NCBI RefSeq assembly: GCF_030296755.1
Contig: NZ_AP027741.1
Location: forward strand, 1,116,001 to 1,180,000
From: Methylophaga marina
Lineage (GTDB): Bacteria > Pseudomonadota > Gammaproteobacteria > Nitrosococcales > Methylophagaceae
Direction: 5' to 3'
Length of the DNA stretch: 64,000 nt
Position 1 is the first letter of the stretch, and each line of letters starts with the position of its first letter. The position numbers and the translations under genes were made by a program. The notes below the pieces were generated by a model. The model was not told the origin of the DNA. It saw nothing but the letters and a program-made list of their open reading frames with translations, and did not search any database. Of this stretch, positions 27,227-32,157 are shown in pieces.

Positions 27227-29968
27227 ATGAGTCAATCTGCCCCTTTCGTTCTGGTCGACGGTTCTTCTTATCTCTATCGCGCATTTCATGCCATGTTCAA
27301 AGCGGATCTTCGTAACTCCGCTGGTGAGCCGACCGGCGCCGTCAGAGGTGTGACCGCGATGTTACGCCGCTTATTGGCCGATTACCCTGACAGTCCGATT
27401 GCTGTCATTTTTGATGCGAAAGGGAAAACCTTCCGTGATGAGTTATTCGCTGAATACAAAGCGCAGCGCCCGCCTATGCCGGATGACTTACGTTCGCAAG
27501 TGCAGCCAGTGCATGACATTATTAAAGCCATGGGCCTGCCGCTACTGGTGATTGACGGCGTTGAAGCAGACGATGTGATAGGAACCTTTGCGCGTCAAGC
27601 GACTGAAAAAGGTCTGGATGTAGTCATCAGTACTGGCGATAAAGATATGGCCCAGCTGGTCAACCAGCATGTCACGCTGGTCAACACGATGACGGAAACT
27701 GTGTTGGATATAGAGGGCGTAAAAGAAAAGTTTGGTCTGCCACCAGAACTGATTATCGACTTTCTAGCTTTGATGGGCGATAAGGTGGACAACATTCCCG
27801 GCGTGCCCGGTGTGGGTGAAAAGACCGCCTTAAGCCTGCTACAAAATCTGGGCAGCCTGAAAGATATCTATGCCAACCTGGAAGCCGTGCGTGAGCTTGA
27901 TTTTCGTGGTGCGAAAAAAATGCCGGAGAAACTGGCAGAAAACAAAGAAATGGCGGAACTGAGTTATCAACTTGCCACGATAAAATGTGATGTTGAATTA
28001 GATATTCATCTTGAAGATATCAAAAATCAACCGCAAGACACCGAAGCACTGCTCAAGTTGTTTAAGGAACTCGAGTTCCGCAGTTGGATAAGTGAATTAC
28101 AATCTTCAGATACCTCATCAACAGCGAATAATGATTCAGCTGATAACATTACGACAGAACAAAATTACGACACTATCCTGGATCAGCAACAATGGCAGGT
28201 CTGGTTAGAAAAACTGCAAAAAGCGGAACTGTTTGCCTTTGATACCGAAACCACCAGTCTCGACTACCTTGAAGCCAGAATTGTCGGTGTTTCGTTTGCA
28301 GTAAAAGCAGGGGAAGCGGCTTACTTACCGCTCAAACATGACTATCCAGGTGCACCGGAGCAATTGGACTTTGATAGTGTTATGCAGGATCTCAAACCCT
28401 TACTTGAAAGTCCTAAACACCTCAAAGTCGGCCAAAACCTGAAATACGATCGCCATGTATTACTCAATCATGACATCAATCTGCAAGGGATAGCTCATGA
28501 CACCATGCTCGAATCCTATGTGCTTGATAGCACGGCAACCCGGCATGATATGGACTCATTAGCTCAAAAATATCTGGGCCGAGATACGATTCATTTTGAA
28601 GATATTGCCGGAAAAGGTAAAAAACAACTGACATTCAATGAGATAGGTATAGAACAAGCCTCGCCTTATGCCGCAGAAGATGCTGATATCACTTTGCAAC
28701 TACACCAGACTTTATGGCCTAAAATTGAAAACATTCCGTCTCTGGCCAAAGTGTATCGAGAATTGGAAATGCCGCTATTGCCGGTACTAAACACATTGGA
28801 ACGTAATGGCGTCAATATCGATATCTGGATGCTGCAGCAGCAAAGCGACAATATGGCTAGACAAATTGCGGATCTCGAAGAGCAGGCTTATGCCGTTGCC
28901 GGTCAAAAATTCAACCTGGGTTCACCAAAACAATTGCAAGAAATTCTTTACGAGAAACAGCAATTACCGGTGAAAAAGAAAACGCCTAAAGGTCAGCCAT
29001 CAACGGCAGAGGAGGTCTTACAAGAATTAGCGGACGAAGGGTATGAACTGCCACAAATCATTATGCAATATCGTGGACTGAGCAAACTGAAATCCACTTA
29101 TACCGATAAGTTGCCTCTTCAGGTCAATAAAACCAGTGGGCGAGTACACACTTCGTATCATCAGGCCGTCACCGCTACTGGACGATTATCCTCCTCTGAT
29201 CCTAATCTACAGAATATTCCTATCCGCAGTGAGAATGGTCGCCGCATTCGTGAAGCCTTTGTTGCATCGGATGGTTACGTCTTATTAGCAGCCGATTACT
29301 CACAAATCGAACTACGCATTATGGCGCATTTATCTGGTGATAAAAGCTTACTGAATGCCTTTGCTAATGGCGAAGATATTCACCGTCATACCGCCTCAGA
29401 GATCTTTGGTGTGGCATTAGAAGACGTCACCAGCGATCAACGCCGTAGCGCCAAAGCCATTAATTTTGGTCTGATTTATGGCATGTCTGCACATGGCTTG
29501 TCTCGACAACTCGGTATCGAACGCCATCAGGCTGCGGACTATATGAATGTCTATTTTGAACGTTACCCAGGCGTTCGTCAGTATATGGACAGCACTCGCC
29601 AGCAGGCCAAAGATCAGGGGTATGTTGAAACCATCTTTGGACGACGTCTGTACCTACCAGAAATTAATTCCAGTAATGGTATGCGCCGCCAATATGCCGA
29701 ACGCACAGCGATTAATGCGCCTATGCAAGGCAGTGCAGCTGACATCATCAAACGCGCCATGATTGATATCCATACCTGGTTAGCTGATGCCGATAATGGC
29801 ATCAAAATGATCATGCAAGTACACGATGAGCTGGTATTTGAAGTGCCGAAAGAGCAGCTGGATATGGCAAGAAAGACCATTGAAGATTTTATGGTGAAAG
29901 CCGCTCAATTAAATGTGCCACTGGAAGTGGGTATTGGGGTTGGTGATAATTGGGAGCAAGCACACTAA
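27227..29968 (+). CDS. polA: DNA polymerase I
   Basis: Replication and repair polymerase with all three activities. Residues 1 to about 290 are the 5'-3' exonuclease ([53 protein letters not shown]). The 3'-5' exonuclease domain retains FDTETTSLD, so proofreading is likely. The polymerase domain has motif A ([17 protein letters not shown]), motif B ([14 protein letters not shown]) and motif C ([11 protein letters not shown]). At 913 residues it is slightly shorter than E. coli PolA. It is monocistronic, followed by the hairpin-rich intergenic region. Confidence 0.97.
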
Positions 29969-30018
29969 CTTTAGTTGCTCAAATATAGTCTCTTCTAATT
30001 TCGCCTTAATGGCGAGTC

Positions 30019-30042
30019 AGGGAAATGCTTGCCCATTTCCCT
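30019..30042 (+). terminator. Stem-loop downstream of polA, possible terminator
   Basis: Perfect nine-base stem AGGGAAATG/CATTTCCCT with a six-base loop, 51 bases after the polA stop. There is no T tract after it, so intrinsic termination is uncertain; it could instead be part of the adjoining repeat island. Confidence 0.4.
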
Positions 30043-30064
30043 AACAACCCTAGGGCACCCCACC

Positions 30065-30179
30065 GTGCTGGCCTGCGGCTTCACTCGTCATAACATTGAT
30101 TCAGGCAGTCGGCTAAAACTCGCTACGCTCAGACACTAGCCTCCCTCAGACCTGAATAAATGTCACTCCTCGCCAGCAC
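30065..30179. repeat. Long interrupted inverted repeat, module A
   Basis: Outer arms GTGCTGGC (30065-30072) and GCCAGCAC (30172-30179), inner arms ATTCAGG (30099-30105) and CCTGAAT (30151-30157), and weaker pairing between. The central loop holds ACTCGCTACGCTCAGACA at 30118-30135, which is complementary to the loop of module B. Confidence 0.75.
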
Positions 30180-30196
30180 AAACGGGGGTTAAAAAA

Positions 30197-30334
30197 GCAC
30201 CCAATCTTCCCGTCTATTGCCGCTAAAAATTCGCTGTATTTTATGGATTAAGTGGGCACGTGTTTGAGCGTAGCGAGTTGGTCTCCACGCCATAAAATAC
30301 AGTGTATTTTTAGAGACAAGGCAATATCGGGTGC
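30197..30334. repeat. Long interrupted inverted repeat, module B
   Basis: Left arm 30197-30246 and right arm 30290-30334 pair almost throughout; the inner portion CTAAAAATTCGCTGTATTTT (30223-30242), continued by ATGG to 30246, faces the reverse complement of 30290-30313 with about three mismatches, and GCACCC at the outer end faces GGGTGC. The loop, 30247-30289, contains TGTTTGAGCGTAGCGAGT at 30261-30278, the near-exact reverse complement of the module A loop. Confidence 0.8.
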
Positions 30335-30545
30335 CCTTTTGTTTGATTCGTTTATTTTGGGCATGCACAAATTCGTCTGGAACGAATTTGGACGCCAGAG
30401 GCGCCCGTAGGGTGAGTGACATGGATGTCACGAATCAAATTAAATGAATGGACTGCAATTAAATCAAAATGATATTGCTAGTCAGCAACAGGCGCTAAGT
30501 TGGTTTTTTATAAAGTCAGACTGAAATGATAAATAATGATCGTGC

Positions 30546-31457
30546 TTATGAATCTGAGCGCTTTTTAGCTCGCGGATGCGCTGAATCATACACCTTAGCA
30601 AGATGCTGAAAATCCACATGAGTATAAATCTGAGTCGTACTAATATCGGCATGTCCCAACAGCTCCTGCACCGCACGTAAATCACCACTGGCTTCAAGCA
30701 TATGCGATGCAAATGCATGCCTGAGTCGATGAGGATGAACACGATCAGAAATACCTTGTTTTTTACCCCAGTAACTCAGTCGTTTTTGGATAGAACGCAC
30801 ACCTAAACGTCGTCCTTGTTGCGTGATAAAAACGGCTGGTTGATCAAAAAAGCCGAGTTGATCGCGTTTATCCAGCCAATCTTGTAATGCAGATAAAGCT
30901 TTGCCACCAAAAGGACAAACCCGGTCTTTATTTCCTTTACCAGTGACATGCACCAGATGATCACCAAAATCGATATCTCGTAACTCAAGAGCAGCCAGTT
31001 CAGCTAATCGCAGACCGGAGGAATAAAAGAGTTCCATCATGGCGCGGTCTCTTGCAGCCACAAAAGTATCAGGGCGTGTGTTATCCAGTAAGGCATTCAT
31101 CTGATCCACATCCAGTGTAGATGGCAAGAGTTTTTCTGTTTTAGGTGCTTGTACTGCTTGCGCTGGATTGAAGTCAACCAGGCCTCGTTTAATCAGAAAC
31201 TGATAAAAAGAACGCGTCGCTGATAACATGCGCTGAATGGTTTTGCCAGACAAGCCTTTACGATGCAAAAAAGCGATGAACTGTCTGAGCTGACTGGATT
31301 TAAGAACCGTCCAGTCTGAGATATTTTTTTGCTCGATATAGTCTGCAAGTTGCAGTAAATCGCGACGATAATTGTTAACTGTATGTTCAGACAAGCGCCG
31401 CTGTTGCGACAAATTGTCCAGAAAGTCATCAACAGGGTGAATTATCTCACTGCGCAT
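30546..31457 (-). CDS. xerC: Site-specific tyrosine recombinase XerC
   Basis: Acts with XerD at dif to resolve chromosome dimers. The 303-residue protein has an N-terminal SAM-like core-binding domain (FLDNLSQQRRLSEHTVNNYRRDL) and the catalytic domain with SSGLRLAELAALELRDI (Arg), GKGNKDR (Lys), HRLRHAFASHMLE (His, Arg), LGHADISTTQIYTHVD (His and the nucleophile Tyr). The ending HPRAKKR is typical of XerC rather than XerD, and dapF-DUF484-xerC is the usual gammaproteobacterial order. ATG 31457 lies within the end of the DUF484 gene; the longer frame upstream is inside that gene and is rejected. Confidence 0.95.
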   Translation of the reverse strand: MRSEIIHPVDDFLDNLSQQRRLSEHTVNNYRRDLLQLADYIEQKNISDWTVLKSSQLRQFIAFLHRKGLSGKTIQRMLSATRSFYQFLIKRGLVDFNPAQAVQAPKTEKLLPSTLDVDQMNALLDNTRPDTFVAARDRAMMELFYSSGLRLAELAALELRDIDFGDHLVHVTGKGNKDRVCPFGGKALSALQDWLDKRDQLGFFDQPAVFITQQGRRLGVRSIQKRLSYWGKKQGISDRVHPHRLRHAFASHMLEASGDLRAVQELLGHADISTTQIYTHVDFQHLAKVYDSAHPRAKKRSDS

Positions 31458-32157
31458 GCTGTTGGTGAGTATATTGTCTGACAACACGCATAAATACTTC
31501 ACCCAAGAAACGCAGATAGTCGGTCGCCATATCCGCATGGAAACGATTAGCATCGACACTGCCAATGGCTAATAAACCGGCACAAGGTTGATGACCTAAA
31601 GGCAAACACGCAACAGAATTAATCTCTTCAGCCCGTTCATCAAACAGTAATCCTTTCTGTGCTTTGGTTAAGCGACCACACACGGGTTCTTGTTTGGTAA
31701 ATAAGTTGTCAAAAATACGTAGTTTTTTATCATCAGCATGAAGCTGTGACACATTGGCTTCAAGTTGAGGTAAATCAAGTTTATGCTGGCCCTGATAGAA
31801 CAGCCTCAATGCCACTTCATCTGCAGCAAACTCATGCTTGAGTTCTGTCTGAATTAAGTTGATGAGATCAGCCAAATCCACAGCATCCATGATGCTTAAA
31901 CAAAGATTGTGCACACGCTTTTCTAATGCTGCGTTACTGTGTGCATTATCAATCAGCGCATGAAGCTGTTCATTAAGCTGTTGGTTTTTTTCTTGTAAGC
32001 GATGGGTCTGTCTCTGGGCTAGAGAAATAGTCCCTTCCGGAGAGCTGTTCAGGTTTAGCAACTCCAGCAGATGAGGCTGCTCAAGAAACAGATCAGGATG
32101 TGCCTCTAAATACTGTTCAATCTGTTCCAGTGTTAAATCTGTTGTAGTGTCGACCAC
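31447..32157 (-). CDS. DUF484 family protein (YigA-like)
   Basis: A 236-residue protein: N-terminal helical segment ([27 protein letters not shown]), a coiled coil ([22 protein letters not shown]) and a GAF-like C-terminal domain ending in a basic stretch. It matches DUF484, found between dapF and xerC. The start is GTG at 32157, overlapping dapF by 25 bases, and its end overlaps xerC by 11 bases, so the three genes are translationally linked. Function is not established. Confidence 0.88.

Follow-up and report, generated by a model that had tools for sequence, protein, structure and literature searches.

Many bacterial palindromic repeats have been explained by RAYTs, and many others are left unexplained. 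MITEs such as ERIC, Nezha and EFAR are short and intergenic, with inverted repeats and a long stem-loop; rolling-circle stem-loop origins carry a conserved loop on a variable stem and show single-strand polarity; and the TwoAYGGAY motif and CsrA-type hairpins display GGA loops. Nezha and EFAR are named in sections of PMC3733652, and TwoAYGGAY is named in part of PMC2864571. The same sections of PMC3733652 describe REP/BIME repeats as palindromes of 20-40 bp tagged with GTAG or CGTC, which are extragenic, form mostly head-to-head dimers, lie between convergent or unidirectional genes and occur in several phyla; they also mention CGTC repeats without a known transposase, as well as the TIR repeats of TIRYT transposases, which are long, partly self-complementary, single or dimeric and of moderate copy number. 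Enterobacterial REP loops are given as AAGCGnaGCG in part of PMC2817692.

The repeat between polA and xerC in Methylophaga marina is ordinary in kind, being a dispersed palindromic repeat arranged head-to-head at gene ends. What is unusual is that its conserved part is a folded loop tip that is common to several phyla and has strand polarity. It shares with REP/BIME repeats, as described in the cited sections, the inverted extragenic palindromes, the head-to-head dimers and the position at gene ends, and its gene-gap preference resembles that of the REPs of PMC3733652; it differs in that the long hairpin alone exceeds 100 nt and may be followed by further hairpins, and in that the tip is kept while the stems vary. 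In the copies read by eye, the tip hairpin has no GTAG head; CGTC turns up within some feet, though without tagging a short palindrome. The likeness to TIRYT TIR repeats, which in the same sections are also long, partly self-complementary, single or dimeric and of moderate copy number, is offset by Y1 genes of which 0/31 are flanked by the tip, and by several carriers without Y1. MITEs are likewise short, intergenic and built of inverted repeats with a long stem-loop, whereas here no target duplication or parent transposon was found and it is the tip and its polarity that are conserved rather than the termini. Rolling-circle origins have the same combination of conserved loop, variable stem and single-strand polarity, but no common gene was seen near the copies of this repeat (the Rep/HUH profile search covered Y1 only). 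The repeat also carries a cassette whose hairpin loops are TGGA-type, as in the TwoAYGGAY motif and CsrA-type hairpins; no Rfam family reached its cut-off at the repeat, the match to AaHKsRNA22 being weak.

The window is the whole 64,000-nt stretch analysed, positions 1,116,001-1,180,000 of a genome that forms a single contig of 3.107 Mb. Our best explanation, to which we give roughly even chances, is that it holds two head-to-head units of a non-autonomous hairpin repeat that is dispersed and foldback or BIME-like, and whose folded single strand is recognised at the tip. The repeat is dispersed and biased towards head-to-head pairs, its stems covary beneath a tip that crosses phyla, arm mismatches are of a kind that favours a folded tip strand, one pair has inverted in place, and stem subtypes change as blocks between orthologous copies. 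Against this explanation, no mover was found, and module B of the window folds at least as well on the non-tip strand. The genes polA (27227-29968, plus strand) and xerC (30546-31565, minus strand), named from their translations, converge on the repeat, which extends from about 29999 to about 30453. Side-by-side reading of copies gives the order within a unit as long hairpin, second hairpin C and end hairpin; here the left unit, made up of end hairpin, C' and module A, is read on the minus strand, and the right unit, with module B and C, on the plus strand. The features, with the basis of each in brackets, are as follows.

29999-30016, minus strand: end hairpin E' of the left unit, TCGCC..GGCGA, with the hairpin stretch at 30001-30015 (fold; same hairpin in orthologous copies)
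30016-30045, minus strand: hairpin C' of the left unit, reading GGGAAATG-GGCAAG-CATTTCCC on the minus strand, the inverted counterpart of hairpin C (repeat search, fold, copy comparison)
30065-30179, minus strand: module A, the long interrupted hairpin of the left unit (DNA and RNA folds; own-genome copies)
30116-30135, minus strand: conserved tip of module A, reading TGTCTGAGCGTAGCGAGTTT on the minus strand (exact pattern match; cross-phylum tip)
30180-30196, no strand: spacer separating the facing 5' ends of both units (sequence; other copies laid out alike)
30197-30334, plus strand: module B, the long interrupted hairpin of the right unit (repeat search, DNA and RNA folds, own-genome copies)
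30261-30279, plus strand: conserved tip of module B, TGTTTGAGCGTAGCGAGTT, then GG instead of TT (sequence, 13-mer count)
30337-30452, plus strand: hairpin C of the right unit, its loop filled by a cassette; the outer end (..CGCCCCAGCGGCAGCG) present in other copies is missing here (repeat search, copy comparison)
30363-30436, minus strand: cassette of about 70 bp with TGGA/TCCA-loop hairpins, inside the loop of hairpin C (copy comparison; genome searches)

The original prediction had described two stem-loop modules, and both were found where it placed them; modules A and B are real, but the feature is larger than the two together, adding the end hairpin, C', and C with its cassette. The complementary loops that it reported also hold, with a cross-module match of 30117-30141 to 30255-30279 (25 nt, 88% complementary). 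It had offered two readings. The first, a single repeat present in both orientations, is supported: the modules recur together and apart in their own genome, and the stretch that holds them matches 32/58 genomes. The second, kissing loops, gained no special support. Its remark that no transposase is visible stands, and no common neighbour family was seen around the dispersed copies either, among the 25 largest clusters.

The arms of module B (30217-30246 and 30290-30319) are 87% complementary by repeat search. Each strand of the window holds the 13-mer GAGCGTAGCGAGT once (30118-30130, minus; 30266-30278, plus), a total of two against a shuffle mean of 0.01. The fold of 30040-30345 beats 100/100 shuffles on both strands (z -4.9 plus, -4.6 minus), the minus strand of the whole stretch folding at least as well as the plus strand. 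Taken singly as RNA, modules A and B fold better than 200/200 shuffles on both strands; as one strand of DNA, module B again does better than 200/200, and module A is moderately above chance (z -2.1, with 9/200 shuffles equally good). For module A the tip strand is the better RNA fold (-47.4 vs -32.3 kcal/mol), and for module B the non-tip strand (-52.7 vs -49.0 kcal/mol). No Rfam 15 family reached its gathering score in the window or at units in 20 loci, and a permissive threshold gave nothing convincing on the repeat.

The 20-nt tip consists of outer pairs Y-G and T-A, a GA/G internal loop, a 2-bp mini-stem GC/GC and a GNA triloop. Mini-hairpins of the type GC-GNA-GC, or d(GCGNAGC), are stable in DNA. 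The triloop is GNA in 229/232 loops, and at position 4-17, out of 221 loops, 132 have T·G and 84 have C-G; both tallies are biased by the use of the tip pattern to fetch most loci. The outer mini-stem pair changes from G-C to C-G (GACCGAAGGGAG) in 14 copies, including copies of the own genome and two in loci titled Thermodesulfovibrionia. In alignment A1, made of 48 non-redundant representatives, the stems covary: the score is 0.538 vs 0.167 for shuffles (sd 0.020; 0/500 reach it) and 0.257 for the best slid register, and 74.8% of cells are paired vs 51.7%; two of five measures (both-side changes and further pair types) were not above shuffles. The inner 8 bp are paired at 7-8 positions (G·T allowed) in 125/188 copies, compared with 55/5000 cross pairs whose arms were drawn from dissimilar copies in fixed register; the inner 8 bp were used because an ungapped 18-nt score across the bulge was uninformative, with 4/193 copies reaching 14/18. 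By eye, many stems have in common an asymmetric bulge, of the form GGATNAG facing CC, some 9 bp beneath the tip.

Stem mismatches carry a strand polarity. On the tip strand, arm mismatches are G·T in 439 and A·C in 168 cases (190 of 198 stems), and over 64 cluster representatives the counts are 63 and 15; by cluster, 28 favour G·T, 4 are reversed and 32 are tied. The excess of G·T over A·C indicates one folding strand rather than a symmetric cruciform, but does not separate RNA from ssDNA. Compensatory changes and strand-specific wobble, the two marks of a structured single-stranded element, are both present. Judged from the sequences, the contrast between stems that differ from copy to copy and a tip that is nearly constant across phyla suggests that a factor recognises the folded tip. 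A trans-acting enzyme or factor would read the folded single strand at the tip and thereby spread the repeats, and the folded form would more probably be ssDNA than RNA.

In the genomes searched, the longer repeat is limited to the family of its host, and the tip extends beyond it. A 296-bp stretch of it matches 32/35 genomes in the own family and 0/23 outside. A small covariance model of tip and inner stem (R1) matches 24/25 family genomes tested, 0/6 sister-family genomes and 3/3 distant carriers, the last three having been included deliberately; one genome (G112) is rich in copies, with 34 R1 matches. The exact tip pattern TGTYTGAGCGNAGCGAGTTT occurs in 19/369 genomes of the class, compared with 0 for a reversed control pattern; with the mini-stem left free the number is 23/369, some of which look like chance, the control also giving a few. 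A near-identical pattern was found in at least 115 stretches of the named genome collection, where about 0.2 would be expected at equal base frequencies. Among the 80 matches listed, 26 have record titles outside Gammaproteobacteria, namely Thermodesulfovibrionia and other Nitrospirota, Desulfobacula and other former deltaproteobacteria, Dysgonomonas, Parabacteroides, Tenacibaculum, Planktophila, Cellulosilyticum and one plain 'bacterium'. Unrelated stems carry the tip in Gammaproteobacteria and, going by record titles, in four or more further phyla, single cross-phylum matches being open to contamination because many are MAGs; the carriers include two named strains, Cellulosilyticum ruminicola and Dysgonomonas sp. 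25. In most of the non-Methylophaga loci read, a long hairpin bears the tip in its loop, and a C-type hairpin often comes next (L184 is weak); the G112 and Desulfobacula loci read have the long hairpin without C. Plasmid and phage collections gave no match to the repeat, and viral contigs only two stretches with it, one of which (L321) has no matching stem. No description of the family was found in the open-licence PMC full texts searched, PMC2267715 included, as far as the retrieved parts of these texts go; judged by titles and the starts of abstracts, the 12-mers GAGCG(T/A)AGCGAG and their complements occur in papers on subjects other than palindromic repeats, and the nearest literature matches, likewise on partial text, are papers on REPs, stem-loop families and DNA hairpins.

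With the window counted in both, its own genome has five places with A-type sequence and six with B-type; one A-type copy is split by a cassette, and R1 gives 11 matches. Second copies, which the original prediction had proposed to look for in this and related genomes, therefore exist and are dispersed, and the covariation that it had likewise proposed to look for is present. On its question whether they are always paired, 49 distinct neighbouring loop pairs in the loci examined comprise 40 head-to-head, 6 tail-to-tail and 3 direct pairs, counts unchanged once reverse-complement duplicates were removed; single units also occur. Because head-to-head inverted units share a conserved loop, the loops of A and B are complementary, and this complementarity is a by-product of the orientation. 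An alternative, that the two loops pair as kissing loops in an RNA switch at polA-xerC, could draw on that complementarity and on the free base N, which agrees in 21/39 pairs vs 11.7 expected from shuffles (P 0.001) and so leans towards matched loops; relatedness and gene conversion can, however, yield the same pattern. Since complementarity is automatic for inverted copies, since units without a partner tip exist (the hsp20 site and the G112 loci read), since the variable Y is often unlike within a pair, and since G058 and G012 carry a different, reversed pair at polA-xerC, we regard such a kissing-loop switch as barely credible.

Comparison of seven own places (polA, 1246, 1326, 1521, 1522, 2389 and 2390 kb) showed that a genome of the same species (G058) is occupied at 6/7, the seventh (2390.9 kb) lying in a stretch of about 1.4 kb for which G058 has different sequence. 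This sharing gives no sign of recent movement. Most of these places are also occupied in three further genomes (G012, G014 and G022); G014 is without the 2389.8-kb unit, and there the neighbouring sequence is absent too. No clean empty site or target duplication was seen among the regions compared, and two sites are complicated by an IS481-like insertion and by gene gain or loss. The IS481-like transposase (393 aa; Pfam rve, rve_3, LZ_Tnp_IS481; L306:1295-2612) has inserted into the foot of the B hairpin in the copy that the same-species genome has at the 1246-kb site; at that site all five genomes agree. The pair at the 1326-kb site (L029:2802-3287; orthologues L307, L309, L310 and L312) has inverted in place among Methylophaga genomes. 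Its core of 422 bp, or 490-491 bp with the cassette, lies between inverted repeats of 32 bp with 0-2 mismatches in four genomes (perfect in G022, one mismatch in G000 and G014, two in G058) and runs in one direction in G000, G058 and G014 and in the opposite one in G022; G012 has the reversed core and has lost one inverted repeat. Head-to-head pairing would give the element long inverted repeats through which it may invert and recombine. G000, G022 and G014 have an A-first pair at polA-xerC, and in G058 and G012 it is reversed and of another stem subtype; both outer ends differ at this site, and because the reversed pair differs in stem subtype, replacement is as likely as inversion. Such subtypes differ as blocks between orthologous copies. 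Between polA and xerC, G009 has no repeat and G011 has GTAGGTTGGGTT palindromes.

The cassette of about 70 bp is present in 13/16 genomes searched whole, with 41 matches, and its four copies in the own genome all lie in units (window 30363-30436; 2389721, 2390806 and 1246987). Inspection of 29 of the 41 placed 28 within the loop of the tip hairpin or of hairpin C, and 1 at a unit foot. Most 5' flanks end in TT or CT, and a few in TTG; these flanks come partly from loci fetched for holding units, the counts from the whole-genome search. In at least five copies, judged by eye, the flanks come from different hairpins and the arms do not match; such chimeras seem to arise by recombination at the cassette. 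Mismatched cassette-bearing arms show that not every copy is kept folded. The cassette region 30359-30448 has a weak match to Rfam AaHKsRNA22 (20.2 bits, cut-off 39.8, E 0.21).

In relation to ORFs, 178 tips lie between and 2 inside. An alternative that we think rather unlikely is that the unit acts as RNA, as a structured 3' region or a small RNA with a protein-bound tip that affects mRNA end stability or turnover, its copies helping the host. Strand-specific wobble would suit such a role, as would the RNA folds of the tip strand (z -3.4 for module A, -5.1 for module B) and the choice of gaps: tip-holding gaps from the tip-pattern search comprise 34 convergent, 47 tandem and 13 divergent (n=94), compared with 15, 64 and 45 among other gaps of at least 200 bp (n=124), so that convergent gaps are enriched (P 3.3e-5) and divergent ones depleted (P 1.9e-4). 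Outside Methylophaga the corresponding counts are 21, 30 and 12 for tip gaps vs 30, 131 and 65 (gaps of at least 50 bp); all gene contexts rest on crude ORF calls. On the same calls, however, tips in tandem gaps have no preferred orientation with respect to transcription (35 same, 43 opposite). The other strand of module B folds better (z -7.1), no sigma-70-like promoter was detected within 29900-30600 and no terminator-like site within the repeat (the single one is the xerC 3' end, outside it), copies with mismatched arms survive, and in-place inversion is tolerated. Strand and transcription data are somewhat, though not decisively, more consistent with ssDNA than with RNA.

A mover was sought among Y1 genes and among neighbouring genes. 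If these were ordinary REP/BIME repeats moved by the RAYT (Y1 tyrosine transposase) of the genome, their palindromic and extragenic nature, head-to-head dimers and gene-end location would be accounted for, the genome does have one Y1_Tnp gene (86367-86693), and the enterobacterial REP loops noted in part of PMC2817692 look alike. But the GTAG head is absent, and the own Y1 gene is flanked not by the unit but by GTAGGTTGGGTT palindromes of another family. Across genomes, Y1 was detected in 26/40, made up of 11/18 with the exact tip, 10/13 class members without it and 5/9 further Methylophaga; seven unit-bearing genomes have none (G112 with its 34 matches, G058, G005, G268, G338, G025 and G027), and the tip, at up to two mismatches, occurs in 0/31 Y1 loci. 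Y1 neither tracks nor flanks the repeat, RAYT was rejected as its mover, and this origin is very improbable. No protein family is shared by carriers in the 25 largest clusters of ORFs within 2.5 kb of the tip, which consist of repeat-derived ORFs and local genes. It could also be that the repeats have no current function or mobility and are old sequences kept alike, with complementary arms, by gene conversion and hairpin template switching. Sites largely common to relatives, stem subtypes that vary as blocks between orthologous copies and chimeric copies all fit that history; template switching, on the other hand, leaves unexplained both why unrelated stems in different phyla carry the same 20-nt tip and why G-T mismatches outnumber A-C on one strand, and we consider such a history quite improbable. 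In the region of the RAYT-like Y1 gene (L082:1-3327), the GTAGGTTGGGTT...CCCAACA palindromes form a separate REP family.

Returning to a dispersed hairpin recognised at its tip, a tip common to several phyla on unrelated stems points to one recognised structure and offers a concrete bait for the factor, and in-place inversion and loop-targeted cassettes are two measurable activities. A wider reading, possible but doubtful, is that these repeats belong to a phylum-crossing class of hairpins with a conserved GNA-capped tip and free stems, which a putative structure-reading enzyme other than a RAYT spreads and inverts, and which carry the 70-bp cassette nested in their loops. If such an enzyme exists, it would represent a new route for the spreading of intergenic hairpins. 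Elsewhere in the own genome, a c-di-GMP-I riboswitch (40.5 bits, L031:6863-6938, at about 2391.9 kb) lies about 1 kb from the units of the hsp20 site. In other relatives, five loci just after polA (L067, L071, L075, L076 and L078) carry a different repeat, AACCACAGAG..CACAGAGG ... ATCTGCGTAATCTGCGGATA, sometimes alongside the unit.
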